A DNA stretch of 64,000 nucleotides from contig NZ_VVIW01000030.1 in NCBI RefSeq assembly GCF_011682045.1, positions 1 through 64,000 of the forward strand, written 5' to 3'. Source of the stretch: Massilia aquatica (lineage in GTDB: Bacteria > Pseudomonadota > Gammaproteobacteria > Burkholderiales > Burkholderiaceae_D). The notes below the pieces were generated by a model, which was not told where the DNA came from, did not search any database, and saw only the letters and a list, made by a program, of their open reading frames with translations. Within the stretch, counting starts at the first letter, position 1. Each line of letters begins with the position of its first letter. A program made the translations under genes and the position numbers. Positions 1 through 15,615 of this stretch are shown here, one piece after another.

Positions 1-2
1 GC

Positions 3-980
3 AACGATATCGCCCTCGACGTCGAGCTCGGCTATCCGGCCAAGAGCCAGATCGACGCCATCCGCAGCGCGGTCGTGGCCGCCTTGCAGGCGCTGCCGGG
101 CGCAGGGCGGATCAATCCGAACGTGTATTCCAAAATTATTTCGCATACGGTGCAGCGCGGCCTGAAAATCATGCCGAACGTGAAGAACATCATCGCGGTG
201 GCTTCCGGCAAGGGCGGCGTGGGCAAGTCGACGACGGCGGTCAACCTGGCGCTGGCCCTGGCGGCCGAGGGCGCCAGCGTTGGCGTGCTGGACGCCGACA
301 TTTATGGTCCGTCGCAGCCGATGATGCTGGGCATTAACGGCCGTCCGGAAACCTCGGATGGCAAGACCATGGAGCCGCTGGAGAACCACGGTTTGCAGGT
401 GTCGTCGATCGGTTTCATGATCGATCCGGACGAGCCGATGGTGTGGCGCGGCCCGATGGTCACGCAGGCGCTGCAACAGTTGCTTGAGCAAACCAACTGG
501 CGCGACCTCGATTACCTGATCGTCGACATGCCGCCAGGCACCGGCGACATCCAGCTGACCCTGTCGCAAAAAGTGCCGGTCACGGGCGCGGTGATCGTCA
601 CCACGCCGCAGGATATCGCCCTGCTGGACGCACGCAAGGGCTTGAAAATGTTCGAGAAAGTCGGCATTCCGATCCTCGGCGTGGTGGAAAACATGAGTAC
701 CCACATCTGCTCGAACTGTGGCCACACCGAAGCGATTTTCGGCCACGGCGGCGGCGCCAAGATGTGCGCCGACTTCGGCGTGGAGTTTCTTGGGGCCTTG
801 CCGCTGACCATGTCGATCCGCGAGCAGACCGATTCGGGCCGCCCGACCGTGGTGGCCGAGCCGAATGGTCCGGTGGCGCAGATCTACAAGGATATCGCGC
901 GCAAGGTTGCCATCAAGATCGCCGAGAAGGCGAAAGACATGACCAGCAAGTTCCCCAGCATTGTCATCAAAAACGACTAA
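3..980 (+). CDS. apbC: Mrp/ApbC-type iron-sulfur cluster carrier ATPase (5' end outside window)
   Basis: The reading frame is open from base 3, so the gene starts before the window and about 325 residues are present; the family is usually about 360. The visible N-terminal part (GYPAKSQID) matches the small DUF59-like domain that precedes the P-loop domain. The ATPase core shows the deviant Walker A GKGGVGKST, the VDMPPGTGD motif, and the CSNC pair that in this family bridges an Fe-S cluster between two subunits. The protein is known to bind and hand over Fe-S clusters in the cytoplasm. The GTG at 75 is an internal codon and not the start. A stem-loop begins at the stop codon. Confidence 0.95.
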   Translation, partial: NDIALDVELGYPAKSQIDAIRSAVVAALQALPGAGRINPNVYSKIISHTVQRGLKIMPNVKNIIAVASGKGGVGKSTTAVNLALALAAEGASVGVLDADIYGPSQPMMLGINGRPETSDGKTMEPLENHGLQVSSIGFMIDPDEPMVWRGPMVTQALQQLLEQTNWRDLDYLIVDMPPGTGDIQLTLSQKVPVTGAVIVTTPQDIALLDARKGLKMFEKVGIPILGVVENMSTHICSNCGHTEAIFGHGGGAKMCADFGVEFLGALPLTMSIREQTDSGRPTVVAEPNGPVAQIYKDIARKVAIKIAEKAKDMTSKFPSIVIKND

Positions 981-1022
981 GTAAGTGTGCAGAAATTACA
1001 AGAATTTATGCGCACTTACTTA
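978..1022 (+). terminator. Long stem-loop beginning at the mrp stop codon
   Basis: Arms 978-990 and 1010-1022 are complementary over 13 positions with one G-T wobble, enclosing a 19-base AT-rich loop. The left arm contains the TAA stop codon. No U-tract follows, so it could be a 3' mRNA stabiliser or part of a two-hairpin terminator with 1038-1057. Confidence 0.45.
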
Positions 1023-1037
1023 AGCCAGGCTGAGAGG

Positions 1038-1057
1038 GCCTATCTGTTCAGATAGGC
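1038..1057. terminator. Hairpin between mrp and the DUF4399 gene
   Basis: GCCTATCTG and CAGATAGGC form a perfect 9-bp stem with a 2-base loop. There is no T-run, so Rho-independent termination is not certain. Confidence 0.45.
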
Positions 1058-1155
1058 GCTATCGTGTGGCGCTTTCGCGGCGCCCGCGTGCAAAATAGGC
1101 AAGGGTTGGCGTGGTCCACGCCGGCCAGCCTTTTACCAACCGCAAAGGAATCTAC

Positions 1156-1551
1156 TTGAAATCGTTCATCAAGCACATCGTCTTCTCCGCAGCCCTGCTG
1201 GCGGCGGCCGCCGCGTCGGCGCAATCGGTCAACTTCGTCGAGCCGGCCGACGGCGCGACCGTCAAGAGCCCGTTCAAGGTCAAGTTCGCCGTCGAGGGCA
1301 TGGAGATCAAGCCGGCCGGGGCGCTGGTCGCCAATTCGGGCCACCATCACCTGGTGATCAACGGCGGCGCCATCAAGGAAGGCGAATCGATTCCCTTCGA
1401 TGACAAGCACTTGCACTTCGGCAAAGGCCAGACCGAGACCGAGGTCAAGCTGCCGCCGGGCGAGTACACCCTGACCATGCAGTTCGCCAACGGTGCGCAC
1501 CAGTCTTACGGCACGCCGATGAGCAAGTCGATTAAAGTAACCGTCAAGTAA
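1156..1551 (+). CDS. Secreted DUF4399 domain protein
   Basis: This 131-residue protein has a signal peptide (MKSFIKHIVFSAALLAAAAASA, cleavage near residue 22) followed by one small beta-rich domain. Features include an N-terminal NFVEPADGA stretch, a GHHHLVIN motif and a C-terminal PGEYTLTMQFANGAH, which fit DUF4399, a periplasmic family of unknown function. The TTG at 1156 is chosen because AAAGGA lies 7 bases upstream and the signal peptide then begins at residue 1; the longer GTG start at 1111 would add an implausible N-terminus. The His-rich loop could bind metal, but that is a guess. It stands alone between two hairpin or palindrome regions. Confidence 0.8.
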   Translation: MKSFIKHIVFSAALLAAAAASAQSVNFVEPADGATVKSPFKVKFAVEGMEIKPAGALVANSGHHHLVINGGAIKEGESIPFDDKHLHFGKGQTETEVKLPPGEYTLTMQFANGAHQSYGTPMSKSIKVTVK

Positions 1552-1580
1552 TTCCCCCTGGAGCGCTGTCGGCAGTACAA

Positions 1581-1600
1581 TTGTTTTATCGATAAAACAA
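1581..1600. promoter_or_regulatory. Perfect 20-bp palindrome upstream of the 1609 gene
   Basis: TTGTTTTATC is followed directly by its reverse complement, ending 8 bases before the ATG at 1609. It resembles an operator for a dimeric regulator, although an AT-rich hairpin ending the preceding gene is also possible. Confidence 0.45.
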
Positions 1601-1608
1601 CCCCTGCC

Positions 1609-2394
1609 ATGACGCGCTCCGATTCCTCCGTTGATGTTGCCAGGCGCGCCCTGTTGCTGGGCACGGCGGCGGCACTCGCCATGCCGGCCGCCACGGCGCG
1701 TTCCGGGCCACGCGAGCTGCTGGTCGTCGGCGCCCATTTCGCCAGGGTGTACGAGCGCGCCAACGGCGAATTTTCGGGCATGGCGGTCGAGATCATCCGT
1801 GCCATTGCAGGCGAACTCGGGCAGCCGGTGCATTTCGAGCTGTACCCGTGGGCGCGCGCGCAGTCGATGGTGGCGCAGGGCCAGGCTGATATTCTGGTCG
1901 GTCCCTACAAGTCGCCGGAACGGCTGGCATCGTTTGCGTTTTCCGAGCGGCCGTTTTACCAGGACCAGATGGTGTTCTTCTCGCGCAGCAATGCACCGTT
2001 TGCCTGGGACGGCACCTACGCGTCCTTGCGCGACAAGCGCATCGTGCTCATCAATGGCTGGGCTTACGGCGACGAATTCAATGCCGCGCGCGAACATCTG
2101 ACGGTCAGCGTGACCAATTCGGTCGAGTCGGCGCTGACCATGCTCGCGCACGGGCGCGTCGATTTATTTGCCAGCAATGTGCGCAATACCGAGCCGGTGG
2201 TGCCATTGCTGGCGCTGGAAGGCAAGGTGATCCCGGTCGGGCGCACCATTTCCCTTCAGCGCGGTTATTTCGCCTTCCCCAAACGTCCCGAATACGACGT
2301 CATGCGTGCACGCTTCGACCGTGCCTTCAATGCCTGGGTCGACAGCGGCGAACTGCGCAAACTCGGCAAGCGGCTCAACGTCCAGGTGCCCTGA
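1609..2394 (+). CDS. Periplasmic substrate-binding protein, SBP_bac_3-like
   Basis: The 261-residue protein has a Tat/Sec-like leader (ARRALLLGTAAALAMPAATA) and a type II periplasmic binding fold. Recognisable parts are FSGMAVEIIRAIAGELG, QGQADILVGPYKSPERLASFAFSERPFYQD and a C-terminal region of the kind seen in amino-acid-type solute receptors. No permease or ATPase gene is adjacent, so it is an orphan receptor or an enzyme-like SBP_bac_3 protein; the ligand is unknown. There is no clear Shine-Dalgarno sequence before the ATG. A 20-bp palindrome sits just upstream and may control it. Confidence 0.8.
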   Translation: MTRSDSSVDVARRALLLGTAAALAMPAATARSGPRELLVVGAHFARVYERANGEFSGMAVEIIRAIAGELGQPVHFELYPWARAQSMVAQGQADILVGPYKSPERLASFAFSERPFYQDQMVFFSRSNAPFAWDGTYASLRDKRIVLINGWAYGDEFNAAREHLTVSVTNSVESALTMLAHGRVDLFASNVRNTEPVVPLLALEGKVIPVGRTISLQRGYFAFPKRPEYDVMRARFDRAFNAWVDSGELRKLGKRLNVQVP

Positions 2395-2549
2395 GCGGCG
2401 CTGTAGCGCGCCGGCCCCGGCTATATCCGCGTAGTATTGACAACTTGCGGTTATCATACGCCGCTTGACGCATTGACTACGGTCATATTCCCAGTTGATT
2501 TTTCGCAGGAGATGCGTTGGTGCGTCGGCCTGCTCCCAGGAGACAAACA

Positions 2550-3749
2550 ATGATTGATAAAAATATTTTGCGCGCTGCTTGCGTGTCGGCGGTAGCGGTA
2601 TTCGGCGTCCAGGCGAGCGCCTCGGCAGCGATATTGTCGGTCGGACCGGGCAAGACCTATGTCAAACCCTGCGCCGCGATCGCCGCGGCGAAGAATGGTG
2701 ACACCGTCGAGATCGAAGGTGGCGTGGTGTACAGCGGCGACGTGTGCGGTATTTATGCCAGCAACTTCACGATCCGGGGCGTGAATGGACGTCCGAAAAT
2801 CGATGCCGCAGGCAAGAATGCGATGGGGAAAGCGATCTGGGTGGTGGTCGGCAACAATGTGTTGATCGCCAACGTGGAAATGTTTGGCGCCAAGGTTCCC
2901 GACCGCAATGGCGCAGCCTTGCGCCTGGAGGGCGCCGGCTTTACCTTGCTCAACAGCTTCCTGCACGATAACGAGAACGGCATTCTCAGCGGCGCCAATG
3001 CGGCCAGCGATGTGGTCATCGAAGGCACCGAATTCGGGCGCAATGGGTATGGCACCGGGCAGACCCATAATCTGTATATCGGCACGGTGCGCAGCCTGAC
3101 CTTCCGCCGCAATTTTTCGCATGATGCCAACGTGGGCCATAACCTCAAGTCGCGCGCGCAGACCAACTATATTTTGTATAACCGCTTTTCCAGCCTGCGC
3201 CCGGGCGAAACCGGTTCGACCGCCGCCGGCCAGCCGAGTTACGAGATCGATTTACCGAATGCCGGTACCTCGTACGTGATCGGGAATGTGATCCAGCAGC
3301 CTGCGGCCAACCAAAACGGGGCCATGCTGGCGTATGGGGAAGAGGGGGCGTCGAATGCCGGGCATGATCTGTATGTGATCAATAATACCTTCCTCAACGA
3401 CGATACCGCGCGCGGGGTGTTTGTGATGGTCGGGTCGGGCGTGACCAAGCCGGTTCTGCTGCAGAATAATATCTTTTCTGGGATCGGGACCTTGAGTACG
3501 CAGGCCACCACGGTAGCCAAGACCAATTACCGCTCTGTGGCGCCGGGGTTTGTCAACCGCGCGACCTACGATTTGCGGCCGACGCCGTCGCCGCTGGTGG
3601 TCAATGCCGGCAGCGATCCGGGGGTGTCGGCCACTGGCTATGTGCTCAAGCCGGTGGCGCAGTACAAGCATGTGGCGTTCTGGGTCGGCCGCCCGGTGGT
3701 CGGCGAGCTCGATATCGGGGCGTACGAGGCGAATTCGATCGCGCCTTAG
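2550..3749 (+). CDS. Secreted right-handed parallel beta-helix protein
   Basis: The 399-residue product starts at the ATG preceded by AGGAGA and has a signal peptide ending near ASASA. The rest shows repeated short beta-strand turns (TIRGVNGRP, VLIANVEMFGA, FTLLNSFLHDN, VVIEGTEFGRNGYG, LYVINNTFLND) typical of pectate-lyase or right-handed beta-helix folds. Such proteins usually act on polysaccharides outside the cell or in the periplasm. I see no catalytic signature that assigns a substrate, so lyase activity is inference only. It is followed by a hairpin shared with the convergent VWA gene. Confidence 0.85.
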   Translation: MIDKNILRAACVSAVAVFGVQASASAAILSVGPGKTYVKPCAAIAAAKNGDTVEIEGGVVYSGDVCGIYASNFTIRGVNGRPKIDAAGKNAMGKAIWVVVGNNVLIANVEMFGAKVPDRNGAALRLEGAGFTLLNSFLHDNENGILSGANAASDVVIEGTEFGRNGYGTGQTHNLYIGTVRSLTFRRNFSHDANVGHNLKSRAQTNYILYNRFSSLRPGETGSTAAGQPSYEIDLPNAGTSYVIGNVIQQPAANQNGAMLAYGEEGASNAGHDLYVINNTFLNDDTARGVFVMVGSGVTKPVLLQNNIFSGIGTLSTQATTVAKTNYRSVAPGFVNRATYDLRPTPSPLVVNAGSDPGVSATGYVLKPVAQYKHVAFWVGRPVVGELDIGAYEANSIAP

Positions 3750-3756
3750 CCACCGA

Positions 3757-3797
3757 CGTCCTTCCCGGCCTCGGCGGCCGCCTTGGCGGGAAGGACG
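3757..3797. terminator. Hairpin between convergent genes
   Basis: CGTCCTTCCCG (3757-3767) and CGGGAAGGACG (3787-3797) form an 11-bp stem around a GC-rich loop in the gap between the beta-helix gene and the VWA gene. The T-run is weak. Confidence 0.5.
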
Positions 3798-3819
3798 GCT
3801 TTCAGGTTAGCGATGAGGC

Positions 3820-4977
3820 TTACGCCTTCACCCCCACAATCCCCGCTTCCGCCGCCCACTGGCTTATATCGCTGCGCTTGATCGCCGCCGCCATCAATTC
3901 CGGGAACAGATCGGGCGTACACGCAAAGCACGGCGCCCCCAGCGCGGCAAAATACGCCGCATTCGCGTGGTCGTAACTGGGCGCTCCGTGATCGTCGAGC
4001 GCCAGCAGCACAATCACCTGCACCCCGGCCGCCACCAGCGCCGCCGCCCGCTTGCGCATTTCGGCATTATTCCCGCCTTCATACAGATCGCTGATCAGCA
4101 CGAAAATAGTGTCGGCCGGGCGCGTGATCAAACCCTGGCAATACCCCAGCGCGCGGTTGATATCGGTCCCGCCGCCCAATTGGGTACCGAACAGCACATC
4201 GACCGGATCGGCCAGCATTGGCGTCAGGTCGATCACCGCCGTATCGAACACCACCACTTGCGTGCTGACCGCCTTGATGGTCGCCAGCACCGCCGCGAAC
4301 ACGCTGGCGTACACCACCGACGGCGCCATCGAGCCGCTCTGGTCGATGCACAGCACGATATCGCGCAGCGATTGCCCCTTGCGCCCGAAGCCGATGCGCG
4401 TTTCCGGGATAATGGTCCGGTATTCCGGCTGGTAATGGCGCAGATTGGCGCGGATCGTGCGCAGCCAGTCGATTTCGTGATGGCGCGGGCGGCGGTTGCG
4501 TACCGCCCGGTTCAGGCTGCCCGATACCGCTTGCCGGAATGGATTGGCCAGCCGGCGCTCGAGCTCGTCAACGACTTGCCGCACCACCATGCGCGCGGTT
4601 TCCTTGGTCTTGTTCGGCATCACCTTGTTCAAGCTGAGCAGGGTGGCAACCAGGTGCACATCCGGTTCGACCGACTTGAGCATTTCGGGTTCGAGCAGCA
4701 TTTGCTCCAGGCCCAGGCGCTCCAGCGCATCTTTCTGCATCACCTGGACCACGCTCGACGGGAAATACTGGCGGATATCGCCCAGCCAGCGCGCCACGTT
4801 CGGCGCCGAGGCACCGAGCCCGGCGCCGCGTCCCGACGGCGGGTTGTACAGGGCCGACAGGGCGCGGTCCATGGCCAGGTCGTCGACCCCGAGCCCGTCT
4901 TGCGGCTGGCCCGGTTCGGCGCCCAATACCATGCGCCAGCGGCGCGTTTGTTCCTGCGGGGTGATGTCATGCGCCAT
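3820..4977 (-). CDS. VWA domain protein of a MoxR/VWA operon
   Basis: The 385-residue protein has a helical N-terminal half (about 1-200) and a C-terminal von Willebrand factor A domain. The MIDAS motif DQSGS is at about 212-216, with a later GGGTDINRAL and an ISDLYEGG segment supplying further metal-site residues. In characterised pairs such as NorQ/NorD, CoxD/CoxE and RavA/ViaA, the VWA protein is the adaptor or metal-insertion partner of a MoxR AAA+ ATPase. Here it is the last gene of a five-gene operon and its start overlaps the end of the DUF5682 gene by 11 bases. The target of the complex is unknown. Confidence 0.88.
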   Translation of the reverse strand: MAHDITPQEQTRRWRMVLGAEPGQPQDGLGVDDLAMDRALSALYNPPSGRGAGLGASAPNVARWLGDIRQYFPSSVVQVMQKDALERLGLEQMLLEPEMLKSVEPDVHLVATLLSLNKVMPNKTKETARMVVRQVVDELERRLANPFRQAVSGSLNRAVRNRRPRHHEIDWLRTIRANLRHYQPEYRTIIPETRIGFGRKGQSLRDIVLCIDQSGSMAPSVVYASVFAAVLATIKAVSTQVVVFDTAVIDLTPMLADPVDVLFGTQLGGGTDINRALGYCQGLITRPADTIFVLISDLYEGGNNAEMRKRAAALVAAGVQVIVLLALDDHGAPSYDHANAAYFAALGAPCFACTPDLFPELMAAAIKRSDISQWAAEAGIVGVKA

Positions 4978-7255
4978 GAGCGCCCTCCGTTGTCAATGTG
5001 GCTGCGCTGCCGCCGAGAATCATGCCGAGCACCGGCAGCACCAGCCTGGCGCGCGCTTCATCGAGCTTGCCGCCCGCTGTGGCGATGCTCAGCGTGCCAC
5101 CGGCGCTGCCGGCGCGTTCGCTCAGCTGGCGCCGCTCGGGCGCTTCAAAGGCGCCAAAGGTGCGGCGCAGCAGCGGCAACAGTTCGACGAAGCTCTCCGC
5201 ATCCAGGCTGTTGATCCAGGCATTGACCAGGGTCCATAAACTGTCGTTGTGCAGCAGCAGGGCCGCGCTGCCTTGCAGGAAGCCTTCCAGCCAGTTGCCG
5301 CTGGCCAGCGGGGCACTGGCGTGCGAGCAGCGCTGGGCCAGGGCGCGCGCGGTGCGTTCCTGGTCCCAGTGTCCTTGCTCCGACAAAATCCGGGCGCAGC
5401 GCCCGCCGATCAGCGGATGCGACTGTTCGTTGCCGGCCACCTGGTCGAGCGCATCGAACCAGGCTTGCAGCAGCGTATCTTCCTGGATCAGGCGGATCGC
5501 GCGGTCGGCGGCGATCACTTGCTTGACCAGCCCTTGCGCCGGTTCGTCGGCCATGCCCAGCACGCCGTAGGGCAGGGCGATGCAGGCGCGCGTGACGAGG
5601 CCGTCGACCACCTGGCCGATGGCGCTGGTGTCGGTGGCGCGCACGCTGCCGTAGCGCAGCACGCCGGCCAGCGGCGGCAGGGCCGCCAGCATGAAACCGA
5701 CGTCGGGCGTGAGCGCGCCGACCTCCTGAATGCGCTGCATCAGCAAGTCGACCGCTTGCGGCAGGTCGGCCAGCAGCACCTGTTCGATCAGGGCGGTCAG
5801 TTCGGGCAGGGTGGTTGCTTCATTGGCCAGGCTGACCGCCTTGCCGGTGGCGGCCGCTTGCACGGTGCCGCCCCACACGTTCGCTTCGATCAGGCGGATC
5901 GCAAACTCCGGCTCCCATGCCAGGCGCCACCATTCGTGGAAGGTGCCGGACTTGCCATTGACGTGTTCGTAACGGCCCCACGCGACCCCGAGCAGCGCCA
6001 GGCGGTGCAGCAGCACGCTTTTTTCCAGGTGTGCCGGCTGGCGCAGGTCGAGTTCGAGCTGGCTGTGGTCGGCCTTGGGCGGCAGGCGCAAGCGTTTTTG
6101 CTGGGCCTGCACATCCTGCGGCAGCGGCAGGGTCGGCACGCTGTCGGGGACCTCGCCCAGGCGCTCGTTGACCAGCAGGGCGTCGTGGATCAGGCGCAGC
6201 GGGGCGTCGTTGTCGTAGCAAAACACCGCGCGCACGGCTTCCTGCAACTCGCCCAGGCCCGGACGGGGCCGTTCGCGCATCGCCGCCAGGGTATCGGCCA
6301 GGCGCACCGCTTCGATGATGCTGGCCGAGGAGGCGTCCAGGTCGTGCTTGCGCAGCAAAATGGCGACGTCGGTCAGCCAGTACAGGCTGGCCTGGGCCGG
6401 ATGGTTCCACATGTGATGGTACCAGCCGGGCGCGCTGACCCCCGCTCCGTAGCCGCTGCGAAACGCCAGGCGGCCGTAGCTCCACGGCGTCCAGGTCGCG
6501 GCCAGTTTGACCTTCGGCAAGCCCTTGAGCAAGTCGTTGTCGCTCTTGGCCGACGGCATGCTTGCCAGCGCCGGCACGTGGTAGGCGCCGCACACCACGG
6601 CGATGCGCTGGTGGCCCTGTTTTTCGGCCAGGCGGATGGCGTTGCGCATCCACGCTTCGCGCTGCTGTTCTTGCAGCTTGGGCGGGGCGGCGATCTCGCT
6701 GCGCACCGTGGTCATCATTTCGGCGATGGCGGCGAACAGGTCGAGGCTGTCTGCGCGCTGCTCGACCAGGTGCTCCCACCAGGTGTCGGTGTCGGAGAAG
6801 CCGGCGGCGTTGGCGAGCCAGTGCAGCGGGTCTTCGTGCAGTTCGTCGGTGTCGGTGGCGGACGCTGCTTGCGTCGCTTCGCGTTCGTCCTCTTGTTCAG
6901 CCTCAGCCTCGGCCGGAACCACGTCGGCCACGTCCGGCTCGGCCAGGCGATGCGCCTGCGGCAAGTCGCAAAAGCGCACCGGCACGCCGTTGGCGGTGGC
7001 GTAGCGCATGGCTTGCCATTCCGGCGAGAACTCGGCGAACGGATAGAACACGGCGCGCTGCGGCGCGGCCGGCACGTAGACCAGCAGCGCGACCGGCGGC
7101 TTGATGGCCGGATCGGCGGCAAAGGCGATCAGCTCGTCGGCCTCGGGCGGGCCTTCGATCAGGATGCAGTCCGGGGCCAGCGCCTGCAAGGCTTGCGCCA
7201 GGCTGCGCGCGCAGCCCGGACCGTGGTGGCGGATGCCGAATAAATGGACGCTCAT
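4967..7255 (-). CDS. DUF5682 family protein
   Basis: The 762-residue protein has no signal peptide. The N-terminus carries FGIRHHGPGC, DCILIEGPPEADEL and FCDLP, and about residue 220 has IAVVCGAYHVPAL. Together these resemble the spaced H, E and GxxH motifs of the TraB/ChaN/EreA-like fold; that relation is my inference, while the DUF5682 assignment rests on the RHHGPG and EGPPEAD blocks. The rest is mainly helical and unassigned. It lies 7 bases downstream of the MoxR gene and overlaps the VWA gene, so all are probably co-translated. No function has been demonstrated that I know of. Confidence 0.8.
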   Translation of the reverse strand: MSVHLFGIRHHGPGCARSLAQALQALAPDCILIEGPPEADELIAFAADPAIKPPVALLVYVPAAPQRAVFYPFAEFSPEWQAMRYATANGVPVRFCDLPQAHRLAEPDVADVVPAEAEAEQEDEREATQAASATDTDELHEDPLHWLANAAGFSDTDTWWEHLVEQRADSLDLFAAIAEMMTTVRSEIAAPPKLQEQQREAWMRNAIRLAEKQGHQRIAVVCGAYHVPALASMPSAKSDNDLLKGLPKVKLAATWTPWSYGRLAFRSGYGAGVSAPGWYHHMWNHPAQASLYWLTDVAILLRKHDLDASSASIIEAVRLADTLAAMRERPRPGLGELQEAVRAVFCYDNDAPLRLIHDALLVNERLGEVPDSVPTLPLPQDVQAQQKRLRLPPKADHSQLELDLRQPAHLEKSVLLHRLALLGVAWGRYEHVNGKSGTFHEWWRLAWEPEFAIRLIEANVWGGTVQAAATGKAVSLANEATTLPELTALIEQVLLADLPQAVDLLMQRIQEVGALTPDVGFMLAALPPLAGVLRYGSVRATDTSAIGQVVDGLVTRACIALPYGVLGMADEPAQGLVKQVIAADRAIRLIQEDTLLQAWFDALDQVAGNEQSHPLIGGRCARILSEQGHWDQERTARALAQRCSHASAPLASGNWLEGFLQGSAALLLHNDSLWTLVNAWINSLDAESFVELLPLLRRTFGAFEAPERRQLSERAGSAGGTLSIATAGGKLDEARARLVLPVLGMILGGSAATLTTEGAHGA

Positions 7256-7262
7256 CGGCCAC

Positions 7263-8354
7263 TCAATTCATCACGTCGCGGCAGGCCCGGTACAGGTCTT
7301 TCCAGCCTTCGCGTTCCTTGACCACGGTTTCCAGGTATTCCAGCATGACCACGCGGTCCTGCACCGGGTCCTTGACGATGGCGCCGATCATGCCGGCGGC
7401 CACGTCGGCGCCGCGCATGGTGCCGTCGCCGAAGTGGGCGGCCAGCGACATGCCGTTGGTAATGACCGAAATCGCTTCGGCCGTGCTCATGCTGGCGCTG
7501 GGGGTCTTGATCTTGCGCTTGCTGTCGGCGGTGAGGCCGGCGCGCAGCTCGCGGAACACGGTGACGACGCGGCGGATTTCTTCCAGCGCCGGCACTTCGC
7601 CGGGCAACTCCAGCGCGCGGCCAAGGCTGGCCACGCGGGTTTCGACGATGCGCACTTCCTCGTCGGCGGTGGCCGGCGGCGGCAGCACCACGGTGTTGAA
7701 GCGGCGCTTGAGCGCGCTCGACAGTTCATTCACACCACGGTCGCGGTCGTTGGCGGTGGCGATGATGTTAAAACCTTTTTGCGCCAGCACTTCGTCGTCG
7801 AGTTCGGCGATCGGCAGCATTTTTTCCGACAGGATGGTGATCAGGCTGTCCTGTACTTCGCTCGGGATGCGGGTCAGTTCTTCCACGCGGGCGATTTTGC
7901 CGTCGCGCATGGCGCGCATGATCGGACTCGGCACCACCGCTTCCATCGACGGGCCCTTGGCCAGCAGCTGCGCGTAGTTCCAGCCGAAACGCACCGCTTC
8001 CTCGCTGGTGCCGGCGGTTCCCTGCACGATCATGGTCGAATCGCCGCTGATGGCGGCAGCGAGGTGTTCCGACACCCACGACTTGGCGGTGCCCGGCACG
8101 CCCAGCAGCAGCAGGGCCCGGTCGGTGGCCAGGGTGGCGACGGCGATTTCGATGATGCGCGCATTACCGATATATTTAGCGCTAATTTCCACGCCATTGT
8201 CCAGGGTTCCGCCCAGCAGATATTTGGACACGGCCCATGGCGACAGCTTCCAGCGCGGCGGACGCTGGCGCGTGTCGGCCGCGGCCAGCGCTGCGAGTTC
8301 CTCGGCGTACTGGGTTTCGGCGTGCTGGCGCAGGATGGTAGAAGTGGCGGTCAT
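7263..8354 (-). CDS. MoxR-type AAA+ ATPase
   Basis: The 363-residue protein begins at the ATG at 8354, which has AGGAG 8 bases upstream; a longer open frame continues upstream but overlaps the DUF5691 gene. Walker A is GVPGTAKS (85-92), sensor 1 is in the FNIIATANDRD segment, and an arginine-finger region follows in SSALKRRF. The usual Walker B DE is replaced by EE in ARVEEL. MoxR ATPases act as hexameric remodellers with VWA partners, and a VWA gene is two genes downstream. Its start overlaps the DUF5691 stop by 4 bases. Confidence 0.9.
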   Translation of the reverse strand: MTATSTILRQHAETQYAEELAALAAADTRQRPPRWKLSPWAVSKYLLGGTLDNGVEISAKYIGNARIIEIAVATLATDRALLLLGVPGTAKSWVSEHLAAAISGDSTMIVQGTAGTSEEAVRFGWNYAQLLAKGPSMEAVVPSPIMRAMRDGKIARVEELTRIPSEVQDSLITILSEKMLPIAELDDEVLAQKGFNIIATANDRDRGVNELSSALKRRFNTVVLPPPATADEEVRIVETRVASLGRALELPGEVPALEEIRRVVTVFRELRAGLTADSKRKIKTPSASMSTAEAISVITNGMSLAAHFGDGTMRGADVAAGMIGAIVKDPVQDRVVMLEYLETVVKEREGWKDLYRACRDVMN

Positions 8355-9949
8355 GCAGATTGCTCCTGAAAAGGTAAGTACATATCGTGTCGGAAACGCA
8401 GGGTGCGCAGGAATTTGTCGACCGTGTCTTCCCACTGCGCAAACTCGGGGATGTCTCTGGGCCAGCCGTTTTCGTAGGCCTCGATGGCGCGCGGATCGAG
8501 CACCAGCGCCAGCGTGGCCATGCTGTAGCCGAGCGACCAGCTTTGCAGCGTGTTGGCCGCGCAGCCGGCCTGGATGCGGCTGACCACGGCCTTGGACAAG
8601 GCCAGCGGCCAGTTGCGCCTGGCATTCTTGGCGGCGTCGTCGAGCAGGTCGATCAGGCTCGAATGGGCGTGCATCCAGGCGGCCGGGGTGGCTTCGACCA
8701 AAGTGGCCAGCAAGTCGTCGGCGGCGTCCGGCGGCAGGGTGCCGAACAGGCTGAAGAAGTCGCGCGGCATGTGGGTGTGGATGCCGGACGATTTCAGGTA
8801 CAGGTCGAGGAAGGCGGTGAACCACGCATGCAGGCTGGCATCGTAGCCGGCTTGCAGGCTGCGCTGCAGCGCGCTCGACCAGCCGAGCAGTAAAGTATGT
8901 TTGAACTCGCTGCCCATGGCCAGGGTCAGACAGGTACGCGGCGAGGCGTCGAAGCTGGCCGACCAGTGCGTCGGCGGAACGGCCGCCAGAATATCGACCA
9001 CCCAGCTCGATTTTTCACCCATGGCGGGGTACAGGCCGGCGCCGACGCCGTCGCGCTGCATGCTTTTGTCGCGTTCTTGCGGTACCTCGACCAGCAGGTG
9101 GCTGGTGCCGCCGTTGCGTTCGAGGCGCAGCAGCGGCTTGGCGCGCGCCAGCATGCGCTGCGCCAGTTGCGAGCCGGGCAGGCCGGCCAGCAGGCGCTGG
9201 GCCACGCTGCGCACTTCCTTGCGCTTGTCGTCGAGCGCGCTTTCGAGAAAGGCTTCGTCGGCCAGGCTCAGGCCGACGGAGAGGCAGCCGAGCAGGGTGG
9301 CGCGGTGGTCCGGCGTTTCGCTGGCCCAGGTCGCTTGCAGGGCTTGCACGGCGGCGCCCGGGTCACTGGCGCGCATGTCGCGCAGGGCGTGGGCGCGCTG
9401 TTCGATATTGCCGTCTTCCCACAAGGCGTTGATGTCATCGGTGTCGGCGCCAACCCAGTTCCAGTCGGGATTCTGCTTGGCCAGCCAGTGCCCGCGCGTG
9501 CCCAGCACGCCTTCGATCAGGCTGCGCAAAGGGCGCTGCGCGGTGCCCATGTCCAGCACGCCGGGCAGCAGGCGCGGCGGCAGGCGGCATTGATGGGCGT
9601 TGGCCAGGCGCAGCCACTCGGGGCGAACTTGCGGATATTCATCGAGCAGCAGCAGCGCCAGCGCCTTTTCGGCCTGCGCCGGGCAGGGGCGCAAGGCATC
9701 GCTGTCGCAGGACGGCGTTGCCGGCGCGGCTTGCGCGGCGCTGCCGGGCTGGTAGCCGGCGCGCTGCCACAGGCAATGGGCGGCCAGCGCGAGCCACAGG
9801 TTCGCCTCTTGCGGTGCCGTGTTCGCGCCGGGACGGCCGCGCACGCCCTCGCGCAGGTCGGGCGGCAAGTCGTCGTCGAAGCCGGGCGCGGCGCGCGAAG
9901 TGCCGATCTGCAGGGTTTGATGGATTTTTATCGGGAGCGGGGAACTCAT
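8351..9949 (-). CDS. DUF5691 family protein
   Basis: The 532-residue, mostly helical protein has no signal peptide or membrane segment. Its middle contains a HEAT-like stretch (ALRDMRASDPGAAVQAL, ESALDDKRKEVRSVAQRLL), consistent with an alpha-solenoid scaffold. The C-terminal third has a long Trp-rich helical region. Placement beside SWIM and MoxR genes and the length fit DUF5691. The start overlaps the SWIM gene by 4 bases and its stop overlaps the MoxR start by 4 bases, which implies translational coupling. Function is unknown; a scaffold role in the MoxR/VWA complex is a guess. Confidence 0.75.
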   Translation of the reverse strand: MSSPLPIKIHQTLQIGTSRAAPGFDDDLPPDLREGVRGRPGANTAPQEANLWLALAAHCLWQRAGYQPGSAAQAAPATPSCDSDALRPCPAQAEKALALLLLDEYPQVRPEWLRLANAHQCRLPPRLLPGVLDMGTAQRPLRSLIEGVLGTRGHWLAKQNPDWNWVGADTDDINALWEDGNIEQRAHALRDMRASDPGAAVQALQATWASETPDHRATLLGCLSVGLSLADEAFLESALDDKRKEVRSVAQRLLAGLPGSQLAQRMLARAKPLLRLERNGGTSHLLVEVPQERDKSMQRDGVGAGLYPAMGEKSSWVVDILAAVPPTHWSASFDASPRTCLTLAMGSEFKHTLLLGWSSALQRSLQAGYDASLHAWFTAFLDLYLKSSGIHTHMPRDFFSLFGTLPPDAADDLLATLVEATPAAWMHAHSSLIDLLDDAAKNARRNWPLALSKAVVSRIQAGCAANTLQSWSLGYSMATLALVLDPRAIEAYENGWPRDIPEFAQWEDTVDKFLRTLRFRHDMYLPFQEQSA

Positions 9950-11301
9950 GCTACGGTCTCATTGTCAAAATGATGCAAGCGGCCTTCGGTGAACACGCTG
10001 AGCGGGACGATGGCGTGGCCGTCCCACTCGCCGATCACCGTGACCGGGTGGCCGCCGCTGAGCGCGAGCAGCGGCCACAGGTGGCGAAAGCCTGGGTGCA
10101 GCGGCAGTATGCGGCCATCGGCGCCGGCAAGGTGGGGCGCTGTTCCTGCGTGCGGCACCATGGCGTCGAGCAGCAACGGAAAGCGCTCAAGAAAGGGGTT
10201 GCGCGCCAGCGCGCCGGCGTAAGCGGCCAGCGCGGCGTCCAGGGTGGGGGCCGGGGCCAGCGTGGTGTCGAGCGTGCCGAAGGCGTCCTGCTGCCTGATC
10301 AGGGCGCGCAGCGGGTAAGCGCCGTGGTAGAAGCACAGTTCGCCGTCGAACTGGGTGCCCGGCGCCAGCACCTTGTCGTAGCCCAGGCTGCCGGCGGCGT
10401 ATTGCAAGATCATGGCCCAGCGCCCGCTCGCTTGCCCGCGCAGCCAGGTCGTGCGGGCGCGCACGCGTTCGTTGTCGCCGGTGTGCTGGGCCAGCACTTG
10501 CCAGCGGTCCTGCACGCCGGCCTGGGCCAGTACGTCCTCCTGGCTGATGTTCCAGCCGACCAGGGAGCGCACGTCGCTTTGCAGTTCCGGCGTCAGGTCC
10601 GGCAGGCGACTGCACGCGGTGCAGAGCAGGTAGATCGAGGCCAGCTCGCGCGCCAGCCGGGTTTCCCAGTTTGGCAGGCTGGTATCGAACGCCATGCCGC
10701 TGGCGCGGCGCAGGCGCGCAGCCAGGCCGGCGGCCTGAGCGTCGACCATGCGGGCGGCAATGTCGTTCCAGAACCCGGGGCCGCGTGCGCGCAGGGTCGA
10801 CAGGCCCTCGCGCGCCAGGTCTTCCAGCCAGGTTTGCAGCTCGACGATGCCGGCTGCAACCTTGCTGTCGCGCTTTCCCTCGCGCTTTTGTGCGGCGGCG
10901 GCCAGGGCCGCGGCTTGTTCGGGCGTGGCGGCGGCGGCTTTGTCGGCAGCGCTTTGCTGCTTCTTTTCGCTGCGCTGCTGGCGGCTGTCGAGCCAGTCGC
11001 TGACCCACTGCGGCGCGTCTGCTGCGGCGAACAGCGCGCCGTTGGCGGCCAGTAGCAGGTACAGGCCGATGCCGTGCTTGCACGGAAACTTGCGGCTGGG
11101 GCAAGAGCACTTGAAAGCAGGCTCGTCGAGGTCGATCTGGGTGCGGTAGGGAACTTTGCCGCTGCCCTGGCATTCGCCCCACACGGCGCTGTCGGTCCGG
11201 CCCAGGTTGCTCCACTTGGCGGGTCCGGCCAGCTGGCTGCCGGCGTTGGCGGAACTCGCATCGGGCGCCAGTGCGAGGATTTGATCGGCGTTCAAAGTCA
11301 T
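9946..11301 (-). CDS. SWIM zinc finger protein
   Basis: The protein has 451 residues from the ATG at 11301; a TTG at 11325 would add eight residues and neither has a clear Shine-Dalgarno sequence. The SWIM motif CxCx(n)CxH is visible as KCSCPSRKFPCKHGIGLYL near residue 67. SWIM fingers bind DNA or protein. The C-terminal two thirds are helical with a Trp-containing conserved tail and resemble no catalytic family that I recognise. It is the first gene of the five-gene minus-strand operon and could recognise its target or substrate. Confidence 0.85.
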   Translation of the reverse strand: MTLNADQILALAPDASSANAGSQLAGPAKWSNLGRTDSAVWGECQGSGKVPYRTQIDLDEPAFKCSCPSRKFPCKHGIGLYLLLAANGALFAAADAPQWVSDWLDSRQQRSEKKQQSAADKAAAATPEQAAALAAAAQKREGKRDSKVAAGIVELQTWLEDLAREGLSTLRARGPGFWNDIAARMVDAQAAGLAARLRRASGMAFDTSLPNWETRLARELASIYLLCTACSRLPDLTPELQSDVRSLVGWNISQEDVLAQAGVQDRWQVLAQHTGDNERVRARTTWLRGQASGRWAMILQYAAGSLGYDKVLAPGTQFDGELCFYHGAYPLRALIRQQDAFGTLDTTLAPAPTLDAALAAYAGALARNPFLERFPLLLDAMVPHAGTAPHLAGADGRILPLHPGFRHLWPLLALSGGHPVTVIGEWDGHAIVPLSVFTEGRLHHFDNETVA

Positions 11302-11638
11302 GGAGGGAACAATGCCCGCGGCCAAAGACCGTTGGTAAATGATTAAAGTTAGTAAGTTAACCGTTGGTGGCCATTTTGGGAAGTCCTTTTTTGCCGAAGT
11401 GGGCCGTCAGTCATGCCAGCGCCGGATGTGGTGGGCGTAGCGCTGGCGCCTGGCTGCGGAGCGGCGACCGGGCCCGGGCGGCTGTGCTTGGTTACGCGCG
11501 GCGGCGTTGACGAGGAAGAATCGGATCTGGGGATGGCGACCGGCATTGATCCGCTCGAGCCAGGCCGGGCCGTACGCGGCTGCCGGCTGCCAGGCCGGCC
11601 GATTCCGGCCTGGCAGCGCGTGGCGGCGCGGCGCGTCG
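11302..11638. other. 337-base gap between the SWIM operon and the haloperoxidase gene
   Basis: I see no supported gene here. It must contain the operon promoter (AT-rich stretch 11336-11365) and a hairpin at 11586-11617. The overlapping short frames have Arg/Pro-rich compositions typical of GC-rich noncoding reading. Confidence 0.5.
11586..11617 (-). terminator. Perfect 13-bp hairpin downstream of the haloperoxidase gene
   Basis: GCTGCCAGGCCGG and its exact complement flank a 6-base loop, 22 bases past the haloperoxidase stop codon on the minus strand. No T-run follows. Confidence 0.55.
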
Positions 11639-13138
11639 TCAGGCGTTGCCGCTCCAGAGCGCGCGTGCGCGTGCAAACGCTGTGGCGCCCACCTGGTTGC
11701 CGAGCGAGCGGCCGTCATCGCTGGCACGCTCGAAGTGGATGCCCGTATATACACGCGACGCGCTGGCCTCGATGACGGCGTCGGTAAAGGTTTCCCAGGC
11801 AAGCGTGACGGGCGCCGTGGGCAGGCCGGGATCGATCAGCAGCGAGCGTGCCTGGATGGTGACCGCGTGCCTGAACAAATCGCTGCCGGTAAAGCGCCGC
11901 AGTACTTCGGCCGAGGCCGCGCTGAAGGTGCTGTGTCCGGAAACATGGTCGGGAAAGGCCGGTGTCGGTGCGCTCGGCAGCTGGAAGGGCATCCAGGCCT
12001 CGCCGGGGACCGGCCGCAGGCCGCCGGCCGGGCCTTCGGGGCCGAAGCTTTGAACGATGCGCCCGTTGAACAGGTAGCGGATCGCGGTGATCGGGCGGGC
12101 TGAATCGTAGGCACGCTTGGCGTCCCAGGCGGCAATGCTGGCATCGAATACGGCATTGGTGAGCGCGAAAAACAGTTTCACGTCGTCATCGTCGGTGTAG
12201 CCCTTGCGCGCCGATATCAACTGGGCAAAGCGGCACCAGTACGAGCCGGGCAATTCGCCGCTGGCGCCGCCGGCCCAGAAGTCGCCGATGACCTTCTGGC
12301 GCTCGGTCAGGGTGGCCTGGATTTGAACGATCTCGGTTGCCTGGTCGACAAATTCCTGGGTGCCGAAGGCGGCAGGCGGGGGCGGGCGGAACTGGCTCCC
12401 CGAGGTCAGCGCGAACGGCTGCAGCGTGCCCCAGAACGGGGTGAGAAAGCTCTGGGTGCGGCGCACGCCGGCGGCGTCGTTGAACGAGAGTGGCTGCCAG
12501 CGGTCGGGGAAGACGATGCCGCTGCGCGGCGTGGGCTGGATGACCAGCAGGGGCGGATTGCGCGCCAGGTAGCCGCTGTAGTCGGCGAACGGGGTGCCGC
12601 CGGGCGCCATCGTGCCTGCCTGGTTGGCGCCATCGTCGCGGCGCTTGTCGAGCACCGCCTGGGCGGCGATGGTGCCCAGGCGGGGTGCGGTGGCGCTGTT
12701 GTTGTAGGCGTCGATCGGGCGGCTGCCGAGCGTGATGAGGTAGGCGGTGAAGGCGGCTTGCTGGCCGGGAAACTGATCGAGCAGGGCGGCATAGGCGGCA
12801 AAGCTCATGGCCCTCGCCTTGTTGGCCGCCGTGCGCTCCACGGCCGGCCTGCGCAACTGCGCGCCCAGGCACTGTCCGAGTGCGGCATTGTCGTAGGCGG
12901 CCCAGGCTTCGTACATGGCGCTGTGAACAATCGCGACCGCGCGCGCGGCCATGGGAGGCGCCATGCGCGTGGTGCGCACGGCCTCAAGCGCCTGGTTGTT
13001 CCAGCCGGTGACCGTGCCCTCTTGGGTCGGCTCCGGTGGTGGTGGCGAAGGAGGTGGGTTGTGCGAGCCGCCGCAGGCCGTGAGCGCATTGCCGATGGCG
13101 GCAGCGCCGCCGGCCGCCAGGAAGGTGCGTCGTTTCAT
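11639..13138 (-). CDS. Vanadium-dependent haloperoxidase / PAP2-type phosphatase family protein
   Basis: The 499-residue protein starts at MKRRTFLAAGG, with a twin-arginine-like leader and an ACGG lipobox candidate, followed by a Pro-rich linker. The C-terminal half contains the acid-phosphatase/haloperoxidase active-site set: K and RP in KRAYDSARP, SGH in HVSGHSTFS, and R with H in SRVYTGIHF. These residues bind vanadate or phosphate. The length and spacing fit bacterial vanadium haloperoxidases, but halide preference or plain phosphatase activity cannot be read from sequence. An exported, cell-surface location is likely. It is monocistronic, with a hairpin after the stop. Confidence 0.85.
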   Translation of the reverse strand: MKRRTFLAAGGAAAIGNALTACGGSHNPPPSPPPPEPTQEGTVTGWNNQALEAVRTTRMAPPMAARAVAIVHSAMYEAWAAYDNAALGQCLGAQLRRPAVERTAANKARAMSFAAYAALLDQFPGQQAAFTAYLITLGSRPIDAYNNSATAPRLGTIAAQAVLDKRRDDGANQAGTMAPGGTPFADYSGYLARNPPLLVIQPTPRSGIVFPDRWQPLSFNDAAGVRRTQSFLTPFWGTLQPFALTSGSQFRPPPPAAFGTQEFVDQATEIVQIQATLTERQKVIGDFWAGGASGELPGSYWCRFAQLISARKGYTDDDDVKLFFALTNAVFDASIAAWDAKRAYDSARPITAIRYLFNGRIVQSFGPEGPAGGLRPVPGEAWMPFQLPSAPTPAFPDHVSGHSTFSAASAEVLRRFTGSDLFRHAVTIQARSLLIDPGLPTAPVTLAWETFTDAVIEASASRVYTGIHFERASDDGRSLGNQVGATAFARARALWSGNA

Positions 13139-13446
13139 GGTGTGTTCCCTGTGAGGTGGCTTCCGGCCGGGAAGCGCGGGGATGCCCGCAGGGTGGTCCG
13201 CGGTCGTGGGGGCATACGTGCGGACGATAGCCCGCCGCCGCCGCATGGGTGTTGCGGTGACTCAGGCGCGGACCTGCAGTCGTATCATTGGTGAGGCGCT
13301 GCCCGGAACAGGCCGCAGACGTCTGTCCCTGAGAATATGGCCCCAGGGCAAAATATGGTGCGGGCATGATGAAATCCGCGACGCTTTGATTCAGCGTGCA
13401 AGGCGACGCTGTAAAATACTTCTCTTTACCTACGCATACCATTCCC
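13139..13446. other. 308-base divergent intergenic region haloperoxidase / gltX
   Basis: No gene is supported. A TAAAAT at 13412-13417 about 30 bases before the gltX ATG is a plausible -10, but no matching -35 at standard spacing is seen. Confidence 0.4.
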
Positions 13447-14841
13447 ATGACCGTCGTCCGCACCCGTTTTGCCCCCAGCCCAACCGGCTACCTCCACCTT
13501 GGCGGCGCCCGCACCGCACTCTACAGCTGGGCGTACGCCCGCCACTTCGGCGGCACCTTCGTCCTGCGTATCGAAGATACCGACGTCGAGCGTTCCACGC
13601 CGGAAGCGGTGCAGGCCATCATCGAGGGCATGCAGTGGCTCGGCCTGTCGCACGACGAAGGCCCGTTCTATCAGATGCAGCGCATGGACCGCTACCGCGA
13701 GGTGCTGGCGCAGATGCTGGAAGCCGGCACCGCCTACCACTGCTATTCCTCGAAAGAAGAAGTCGACGCCATGCGCGAGCGCTTCACGGCCGCTGGCGAA
13801 AAGCCGCGCTACGACGGCACCTGGCGTCCGGAGCCGGGCAAGACCCTGCCTGTGGTACCGGCCGAGCGCGAGCCCGTGGTGCGCTTCAAGAATCCGCTCG
13901 ACGGCGACGTCACCTGGGACGATGTGGTCAAGGGAACGATCACGATTTCCAACAAGGAACTGGACGACCTCGTGATCGCTCGTCCGGGCGGCGTGCCGAC
14001 CTATAACTTCTGCGTCGCGGTCGACGACTGGGACATGCAGATCACCCACGTGCTGCGCGGCGACGACCACGTTAATAACACCCCGCGCCAGATCAATATC
14101 CTGCGCGCGATCGGCGCGCCGCTGCCGCAGTACGGACATTTGCCGATGATCCTCGACCATGAAGGCAAGAAACTGTCCAAGCGCACCTCGGCCGTGAGCG
14201 TCATGGATTACCCCGCCAAAGGTATCTTGCCGGAAGCGATGTTGAACTACCTGGCGCGCCTGGGCTGGAGCCATGGCGATGACGAGATCTTTTCAATGGA
14301 GCAGTTCTGCGCCTGGTTCAATACCGATCACCTGACCAGCTCGGCTGCACAGTTCGACCTGGAAAAGCTGGCCTGGCTCAACAACCGTTATATCAAGCAG
14401 GCCGACAACACCCGCCTGGCCGCGCTGGCGCGTCCGCTGATGGAAGCGCAGGGCGCCCGGTTCGACGGCGCACCCGACCTGGCGGCCGCACTGGCGCTGA
14501 TGAAGGACCGCACCAACACGGTGAACGAACTGGCCGATGCCGCCATGCTGTTCTACCGCGCGCCGCAGCCGGACGCGGCCTTGATGACCCAGCACCTGAC
14601 CGATGCCGTCAAGCCGGCGCTGGCCCAGTTCGCCGAGCGTTGCGCCACGGTCGAGTGGACCCGCGAAGCGCTGGCCGCAATGATCAAGGAGGTGCTTGCT
14701 GCTAACACGATCAAGATGCCAGTACTGGCGATGCCGCTGCGCCTCTTGCTCACTGGCCAGTTGCAAACACCGGCCATCGATGCGGTGCTGGTGCTGCTGG
14801 GACGCGAGCTGGTTCTGTCGCGCCTGAACGCTGCCGTATAA
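13447..14841 (+). CDS. gltX: Glutamate--tRNA ligase
   Basis: The 464-residue class I synthetase charges tRNA-Glu in the cytoplasm. The start at 13447 gives [20 protein letters not shown], in which the HIGH-type signature is HLGG within [11 protein letters not shown]; an upstream frame extension to 13396 is not needed. The KMSKS-type loop appears as KKLSKRT near residue 241. The length is standard for GltX. The gene is followed 64 bases later by a tRNA cluster containing three identical copies of its own substrate tRNA-Glu. Confidence 0.97.
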
Positions 14842-14859
14842 ATTGTTTTTCCCGGGGCT

Positions 14860-14887
14860 TTGCATATTGCAAGCCCTAGTATATAAT
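14860..14887 (+). promoter_or_regulatory. Promoter of the tRNA cluster
   Basis: TTGCAT (14860-14865) and a consensus TATAAT (14882-14887) are separated by 16 bases and lie 18 bases before tRNA-Ala, a layout expected for a stable-RNA promoter. Confidence 0.7.
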
Positions 14888-14905
14888 TCTGCTTCTTCGA
14901 CGGAC

Positions 14906-14981
<76 letters not shown>

Positions 14982-15011
14982 CTAATCGAAGTAGTTGTGC
15001 GTAGTAGATTG

Positions 15012-15031
15012 CAGATAGATGCCACTATCTG
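15012..15031 (+). other. Conserved hairpin in the Ala-Glu tRNA spacer (copy 1)
   Basis: CAGATAG and CTATCTG enclose a 6-base loop ending in TGCCA. The same hairpin with a compensatory pair change occurs at 15500-15519, suggesting a selected precursor-RNA structure. Confidence 0.6.
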
Positions 15032-15044
15032 ATTGCAGTACCGG

Positions 15045-15120
15045 GTCCCCATCGTCTAGAGGCCTAGGACATCACCCTTTCACGGTGAGTACAGGGGTTC
15101 GAATCCCCTTGGGGACGCCA
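15045..15120 (+). tRNA. tRNA-Glu (TTC)
   Basis: A 76-base tRNA with GTCCCCA/TGGGGAC acceptor pairing, anticodon TTC in the loop CTTTCAC and encoded CCA. The three tRNA-Glu copies in this cluster are identical. Confidence 0.97.
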
Positions 15121-15185
15121 GGATTCGAGTAGTAAAAAGCAGTAAGATGCAGTATAATGCAGCCGCAGTTTAGTACCACTAAACG

Positions 15186-15207
15186 CCCTGACAAGTCAGG
15201 GTTTTTT
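15186..15207 (+). terminator. Rho-independent terminator after the first Ala-Glu tRNA pair
   Basis: CCCTGAC and GTCAGGG form a 7-bp stem with a 2-base loop, followed immediately by six T. Confidence 0.9.
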
Positions 15208-15259
15208 ATTGGTGCAGCAGGGCAGGTCAGGATGTAGAATACATCCAGGACAGATTTCT

Positions 15260-15335
15260 GTCCCCATCGTCTAGAGGCCTAGGACATCACCCTTTCACGG
15301 TGAGTACAGGGGTTCGAATCCCCTTGGGGACGCCA
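15260..15335 (+). tRNA. tRNA-Glu (TTC), second copy
   Basis: Identical to the copy at 15045, including the encoded CCA. It lies beyond the terminator at 15186, so it needs its own promoter or readthrough. Confidence 0.97.
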
Positions 15336-15400: not shown

Positions 15401-15476
<76 letters not shown>

Positions 15477-15607: not shown

Positions 15608-15615
15608 GTAAGAGC

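Follow-up and report, generated by a model that had tools for sequence, protein, structure and literature searches.

A conserved five-gene SWIM–DUF5691–MoxR–DUF5682–VWA operon of Massilia aquatica is a second type of the Escherichia coli yehLMPQ system

The window examined here is a 64,000-nucleotide stretch of Massilia aquatica DNA (contig NZ_VVIW01000030.1, positions 1 to 64,000), the minus strand of which carries five closely packed genes, read from position 11,301 to position 3,820, for a SWIM zinc-finger protein, a DUF5691 protein, a MoxR ATPase, a DUF5682 protein and a VWA protein. We find that this operon is real and widespread, that its five genes form a conserved module, and that it does not stand alone: together with the yehL-yehM-yehP-yehQ (yehLMPQ) operon of Escherichia coli it makes up a system of two types, of which the window's is the second. 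This kind of system is little studied, and no function is known for it in the literature searched. As a tentative account of what the operon does, which we consider possible and hold without conviction, we propose that a MoxR ring may drive a unit of VWA and DUF5682, the latter a candidate hydrolase, onto a target that SWIM and DUF5691 would recognize. The original prediction, made from the letters alone, described a compact operon of these five families with tight junctions, and checking the open reading frames (ORFs) on the sequence confirmed the genes, their junctions and their Pfam names. The features are as follows.

9946..11301, minus strand: SWIM zinc-finger protein, first gene; 451 amino acids, motif CxC-x6-CxH with C65, C67, C74 and H76
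8351..9949, minus strand: DUF5691 protein; 532 amino acids, overlaps the SWIM gene by 4 base pairs (bp); predicted ARM/HEAT-like, nearly all helical
7263..8354, minus strand: MoxR AAA+ ATPase; 363 amino acids, overlaps the DUF5691 gene by 4 bp
4967..7255, minus strand: DUF5682 protein; 762 amino acids, gap of 7 bp after the MoxR gene
3820..4977, minus strand: VWA (CoxE-like) protein; 385 amino acids, overlaps the DUF5682 gene by 11 bp
11302..11395, minus strand: leader or promoter stretch, conserved in two close Massilia relatives

With junctions that are, in operon order, a 4-bp overlap, a 4-bp overlap, a 7-bp gap and an 11-bp overlap, the five products may be made in a fixed ratio. Pfam assigns DUF5682 (E = 7.9e-270), DUF5691 (2.5e-124), VWA_CoxE (3.5e-53) and AAA_5 (4.2e-37) to four of the proteins; the SWIM match is narrowly above its cut-off (E = 1.9e-4, 21.3 bits against 19.6), with the CxC-x6-CxH motif intact. 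An NCBIfam scan of the five proteins gave no specific name.

The original prediction had set co-occurrence of the five families as its own check, and the outcome was the opposite of rarity. A scan of 84,980 species genomes gave at least 587 stretches encoding DUF5682 relatives, of which the best 80 were kept, a set biased towards the window's type because only the top-scoring relatives were retained. All five families were present in 67 of these 80 loci, spanning eight named phyla according to record titles (Pseudomonadota 25/29, Bacteroidota 23/27, Actinomycetota 6/8, Planctomycetota 4/4, Verrucomicrobiota 3/3, Desulfobacterota 2/2, Acidobacteriota 2/2, Chloroflexota 2/4; 0/1 for the single locus without a phylum label). 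This count takes as complete one locus with a DUF4132 gene between DUF5682 and VWA and another in which DUF5691 is split across two ORFs. Strand and order are the same throughout the complete loci, apart from one in which overlapping ORF calls place MoxR ahead of DUF5691. Among the 13 incomplete loci a contig end cuts the missing side in seven, and the remaining six have some room left and are not clearly contig-cut. In a sample of 299 Pseudomonadota genomes, all six window-type loci held the five families, and NCBI annotation places the five together on Deinococcus (Deinococcota) and Rhizobium plasmids and four of them on a Methylosinus plasmid.

The five proteins are also inherited together. 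Over 73 loci their pairwise tree distances correlate at r = 0.80–0.94, and 500 permutations gave no value above 0.16; the comparison is of the operon proteins with each other, and kinship among the sequences makes high r values easier to obtain. The DUF5682 tree has 14 phylum-label changes (minimum 7; shuffles at least 36), which points to inheritance mostly within phyla with some transfer. In a plasmid collection, 36 of 72,556 records have a DUF5682 match, several of them chromosome-sized. A phage collection yielded a single matching record, MT835988.1, an unverified 'Bacteriophage sp.' scaffold with no annotation, in which the match has 28% identity across 94% of the protein and which may be bacterial. 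On the Methylosinus trichosporium OB3b plasmid pOB3b3, at about positions 11200–12400 of the locus examined, a VWA gene that adjoins a SWIM-DUF5691-MoxR-DUF5682 set, with insertion-sequence genes nearby, is spread over three reading frames, so that this copy looks decayed.

The relationship to E. coli emerged from the same 299 Pseudomonadota genomes, 12 of which carry DUF5682. DUF5691 was found above its cut-off in six, exactly those with high-scoring DUF5682 (658–898 bits); the other six have only low-scoring DUF5682 (329–346 bits) and no DUF5691, and two further genomes have a sub-threshold DUF5691 match without DUF5682. E. coli yehLMPQ belongs to the low-scoring type. Ten loci of this type form one clade with support 1.0 in midpoint-rooted MoxR, DUF5682 and VWA trees (VWA was found in eight of the ten), and the window type falls outside that clade in all three. 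The source genome (7.47 megabases in 99 contigs) holds three copies, one of the window type and two of the other.

The two types share a good deal. The E. coli K-12 operon unites four of the five families (MoxR, DUF5682, VWA and SWIM) and has the same invariant residues, and the window proteins are 42% identical to YehL (MoxR), 31% to YehM (DUF5682) and 35% to YehP (VWA). E. coli K-12 has two MoxR proteins, of which YehL is one and represents a named MoxR subfamily (PMC3893208); by similarity the window MoxR is closest to this subfamily, and its gene likewise has DUF5682 and VWA genes directly downstream. An E. coli-type copy in the source genome has 75%, 46%, 66% and 38% identity to YehL, YehM, YehP and YehQ. 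There are also differences. The SWIM gene is last in the E. coli operon and first in the window operon, the window SWIM protein has no blastp match to YehQ at E ≤ 0.01, and the E. coli-type copy just mentioned has two SWIM motifs. The E. coli operon lacks DUF5691 and lies beside DUF4132 genes; DUF4132 is present in nine of the ten other-type loci, whereas no DUF4132 relative was found in window positions 1–20000. DUF5691 and DUF4132 are nevertheless not mutually exclusive, since six Bacteroidota window-type loci strongly carry both (a seventh has a weak partial DUF4132 match at a contig end). We rejected the idea that DUF5691 is a shortened DUF4132, an adaptor swap by descent: hhalign gave 14% over 66 columns, which does not establish homology.

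The original prediction described MoxR plus VWA as a known remodelling pair, and our analysis supports these two as the core pair of the operon. In MoxR, Walker A (GVPGTAKS), Walker B, sensor N202 and R217/R218 are all intact, and these motor residues are invariant in 93 of 93 homologues of both types, with only S/T variation at position 92, the end of Walker A. Walker B usually ends Asp-Glu; here it ends Glu-Glu in all 93. By sequence, MoxR matches Midasin AAA+ domains best among PDB entries (E = 1.6e-10), with NorQ lower (3e-5), and its Pfam match to bpMoxR (28.9 bits against a cut-off of 27) covers only profile positions 9–60 of 205 and lies far below that to AAA_5. The VWA protein has a complete metal ion-dependent adhesion site (MIDAS; D212-x-S214-x-S216, T271, D297), all five residues of which are invariant in 90 of 90 homologues of both types. 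All four SWIM zinc ligands are kept in 73 of 73 window-type relatives. The SWIM profile used in the survey of loci was built without ORFs fused to DUF5691. PDB searches with VWA and DUF5682 singly gave no match, and those with DUF5682, DUF5691, SWIM and DUF5682 N-terminal profiles gave nothing better than E = 0.027.

Around this constant core the other proteins vary more, with mean pairwise identities over 73 loci of 0.72 for MoxR, 0.63 for VWA, 0.47 for DUF5682, 0.39 for SWIM and 0.26 for DUF5691, the fastest-diverging of the five. An AlphaFold2 model of DUF5691 from 55 sequences (mean predicted local distance difference test score, pLDDT, 89.1) is almost wholly helical, in agreement with the solenoid-like protein of the original prediction. 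Foldseek gave a general ARM/HEAT-like resemblance (best E = 2.6e-3, template modelling score about 0.2) and nothing at E ≤ 0.001. The pairing of a conserved motor with a fast-changing, predicted solenoid-like protein suggests that DUF5691 faces a variable partner.

Natural fusions suggest how the proteins might be paired. SWIM and DUF5691 lie on one ORF in four loci, two of which are nearest neighbours, so that about three events are represented. DUF5682 and VWA lie, in that order, on one 1257-amino-acid ORF of the other type on a Streptomyces plasmid, which in Streptomyces atratus is a single annotated gene of 3768 bp; five Streptomyces plasmid records including the source carry it at 97–99.9% identity, which amounts to one event. 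For comparison, NorD has an N-terminal domain and linker joined to its VWA domain (PMC13036017). These fusions suggest the pairings SWIM–DUF5691 and DUF5682–VWA, whose members would then be in contact. Open frames of 1149–1170 amino acids for DUF5682 in two other-type loci were rejected as fusions, being upstream extensions.

The DUF5682 protein has an N-terminal alpha/beta domain (about residues 1–260), which is followed by a helical C-terminal part. R9, H10, E34, E79, D97, G223 and H226 are invariant in 96 of 96 homologues across both types and G7 is kept in 91 of 96, which places G7-R9-H10, E34 and G223-H226 in the order GxxH, Glu, GxxH. These motifs are a hallmark of the Tiki/TraB/ChaN family. 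A structure model from 59 sequences (pLDDT 87.8) has the same division into an alpha/beta N-terminal domain and a helical remainder, and the alpha/beta order of the former would fit a Tiki fold. The site of the Tiki family consists of two His and two Glu (PMC6254334). Profile comparison gave weak matches over the same motifs: in a scan of 29 N-termini against 24,736 Pfam models, TraB_PrgY_gumN matched two (best E = 0.0059) and ChaN, which Pfam labels 'Tiki superfamily', also two (best E = 0.047). Five of ten other-type N-termini (three of which overlap with the set of 29) had such matches, two to TraB and three to ChaN and all below cut-off, and every matched stretch covers a GxxH motif, the first in one TraB-matched locus and the last in the other four. 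By hhalign, a four-sequence profile of the N-terminus spanning both types matched 30 TraB proteins of related genomes at 65%, with unrelated families at 0.1–3.4% and reversed TraB at 0.1–0.2% as negative controls. The Pfam model PF18934 aligns DUF5682 only from residue 19 and thus leaves the conserved GIRHHGPG (residues 7–14) outside, a gap that may explain why a link to the Tiki superfamily was overlooked.

Several results weigh against this assignment and the proposal built on it. It was the smallest profile that scored 65%; with more sequences the values were 25% (both types) and 23% (other type), and the window-type N-terminal profile reached 2% in two runs. Against ChaN (five sequences) the other type reached 24% and all other profiles at most 3%. 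The intended positive control, TraB against ChaN, gave 0.6%, and the hhalign method is therefore weak here. No Tiki-family match exceeds its curated cut-off, the best listed scores being 15.8 bits for TraB (cut-off 26.8) and 13.5 for ChaN (cut-off 27.7). Other families reach similar scores by chance: CNOT1_HEAT also matched two of the 29 N-termini and CBM46 one at E = 0.0044, the lowest non-self E value; NCBIfam traB matched one at E = 0.13, no better than its neighbours. For 59 whole window-type DUF5682 proteins, TraB and ChaN are absent from the 25 families listed out of 43. Foldseek on the whole DUF5682 model found nothing at E ≤ 0.001, and its 50 listed matches are mainly helical in a search swamped by the helical part. 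The DUF5682–VWA fusion is confined to a single lineage, which belongs to the other type; searches of open-licence literature found no activity, binding or phenotype data for any homologue; and the cousin operon can be dispensed with, the genome-reduced E. coli DGF-298 living without yehLMPQ (PMC10652928) and some Shigella sonnei lineages having lost yehL and yehM (PMC12795559). DUF5682 shares with the Tiki/TraB/ChaN family its conserved-motif order and weak, in-register profile matches and differs from it in falling below curated thresholds, in its long helical C-terminal part and in having a MoxR-VWA motor alongside. We therefore call its N-terminal domain a possible remote Tiki-type enzyme and not a member of the family; the TraB likeness of the original prediction receives weak, consistent support to this extent.

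In the machine that we tentatively propose, the five products would form three sub-units. The MoxR ring would be the ATP motor. VWA and DUF5682 would form one arm: the VWA domain would attach to the motor and could hold a target by its MIDAS, and the DUF5682 N-terminal domain may be a Tiki/TraB-type hydrolase (peptidase or esterase). SWIM and DUF5691 would form a second arm, a zinc-finger and solenoid adaptor by which the target is found. If ATP drives a movement of VWA, as has been proposed for NorQ/NorD (PMC13036017), the target might be opened, or the enzyme switched, in such a way that DUF5682 acts on the target. The sub-unit contacts, the hydrolase activity and the target are all conjectural, as is the setting, which would likely be stress or the quality control of a protein or of a complex of protein and nucleic acid, and not the maturation of a single enzyme encoded nearby.

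A first rival account is a chaperone for cofactor or enzyme maturation. As in NorQ/NorD or CoxD/CoxE, the MoxR-VWA pair would open a partner enzyme for metal insertion, and the client could be DUF5682 itself, which has a conserved set of His and Glu residues. The best Pfam family of the VWA protein is VWA_CoxE, NorQ is among the PDB relatives of MoxR, and iron insertion into nitric oxide reductase needs NorQD (PMC13036017); the E. coli cousin operon adjoins DUF4132/MolR-type genes, and molR has been linked to molybdate (PMC8533742). The window operon resembles NorQ/NorD, CoxD/CoxE and RavA/ViaA in having an intact MoxR motor and a VWA protein with complete MIDAS. These pairs belong, however, to other MoxR subfamilies (PMC3893208), and NorQ/NorD-type pairs differ from the window operon, which has no dedicated target enzyme gene alongside and carries SWIM, DUF5691 and DUF5682 in addition. 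No conserved enzyme gene flanks the operon. When 887 greedily called ORFs flanking 96 loci were clustered, in stretches of at most about 10 kilobases (kb), no further family appeared in more than eight loci, and the most recurrent were the families of a response regulator, an ABC protein and a transporter. Across phyla the five genes travel as a set of their own. We regard a maturation role as rather unlikely. A conflict system, which the original prediction also raised, appears distinctly unlikely. Here the operon would act against phage or in self/non-self recognition, akin to the MoxR-vWA ternary systems whose third components are VMAP, iSTAND, FtsH or beta-propeller proteins (Kaur et al. 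2020, PMC7159879); DUF5691 would serve as a sensor that diversifies, and DUF5682 would be the effector. The patchy distribution of DUF5682 (12 of 299 Pseudomonadota and, within the family, 13 of 145 genomes, 12 of them over cut-off), the three copies in the source genome, the matching plasmid records (36, several chromosome-sized), the rapid divergence of DUF5691 (0.26 against 0.72 for MoxR) and the S. sonnei losses are all in keeping with this, as are strong PADLOC matches in a few neighbouring ORFs (e.g. REase_II in one, E = 7.7e-59). Yet none of the five proteins matches any PADLOC 2023 family at E ≤ 0.001, and no PADLOC family occurs in more than three of 142 neighbours among the 25 of 97 families listed (142 of 150 ORFs drawn from 278 within 5 kb, long ORFs excluded and no control set). 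The PADLOC and Pfam scan of these neighbours gave no theme, and a defence-island context was rejected. The phage collection contributed one unverified contig, and a variable effector would not be expected to show, as DUF5682 does, stronger conservation than DUF5691 and SWIM. The cousin operon has a match in 5301 of 5426 E. coli genomes, with at least 80% of its length covered in 5162, which further weakens the conflict reading. The operon shares with the ternary systems a MoxR-vWA core and further proteins in one operon, but a Pfam scan of the five window proteins found no VMAP, iSTAND, double FtsH or beta-propeller, and SWIM, DUF5682, DUF5691 and YehL have no occurrence in the main text of PMC7159879; to the extent of these tests, it falls outside the four systems described there.

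Even less probable, in our estimation, is a DNA-damage module: the machine would remove or remodel proteins bound to damaged DNA, and SWIM (joined by WGR/DUF4132 in the other type) would target it to DNA. The E. coli molR gene, which sits just ahead of yehI-yehQ (PMC10652928), is on a list of LexA-regulated genes (PMC11039860), and Deinococcus radiodurans DUF4132 and WGR genes rise on depletion of the repressor DdrO (PMC8533742). In E. coli, yehF is preceded at 25 bp by a LexA-like site with seven of eight core bases; this site stands upstream of the array of same-strand genes that ends in yehLMPQ, within a 25-kb stretch that contains ten such sites. All of these points concern neighbours of the other type; the window stretch searched, as noted, contains no DUF4132 relative, and among the 87 loci examined not one has a full eight-base LexA core near the first gene. 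Seven-of-eight sites occur in nine loci, not clearly above shuffles, and we rejected control of the window type by LexA. The leader at 11302–11395 has neither a sigma-70-type site by consensus scan nor a full LexA core. In three Massilia genomes the roughly 90 bp that precede the SWIM start show strong conservation and the DNA further upstream diverges, as expected of a regulated promoter.

The surroundings of the operon can be described briefly. The closest named relatives in this region are Massilia rubra (89–95% DNA identity over aligned stretches >900 bp) and M. frigida (79–94%), and both alignments extend beyond the operon into its flanks. At the window start, positions 75–980 hold what we take to be an mrp-like gene. 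Near-identical stretches of about 77 bp recur in window positions 15045–15656 and in positions 1–480 of the M. rubra locus, which suggests a small repeat family. Two Massilia loci have a metG-like ORF about 7.4 kb away from their window-type operon, and in E. coli the distance from metG to yehM is about 10.6 kb, though the two operon types are not orthologous; this proximity may be either coincidence or a shared site. In five loci (four Actinomadura, one Singulisphaera) an opposite-strand gene, presumably protein-kinase-like, recurs 3.5–5.2 kb from the DUF5682 start.

The original prediction knew of no published function for this gene set. None was found in the open-licence literature searched, which in the parts consulted gives none for YehL, YehM, YehP or YehQ either; the set is less novel than supposed, in that four of its families make up yehLMPQ and YehL is a named subfamily. 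A broader reading, which we think doubtful, is that both types represent a new class of ATP-powered protein-processing machine in which MoxR-VWA force would be passed through VWA to a Tiki-type DUF5682, with a variable adaptor (SWIM–DUF5691 in one type, SWIM and DUF4132 in the other) picking the substrate. If true, nearly all E. coli would carry an overlooked ATP-dependent protease or esterase with no kinship to Clp, Lon, FtsH and the proteasome. The YehL operon is nearly universal in that species and yet without a function in the literature searched. What is new here is a wider family for the yeh operon, a two-arm architecture suggested by natural fusions, and an enzymatic hypothesis for DUF5682/YehM with named residues, and together these make a blank in a well-known genome testable in E. 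coli.

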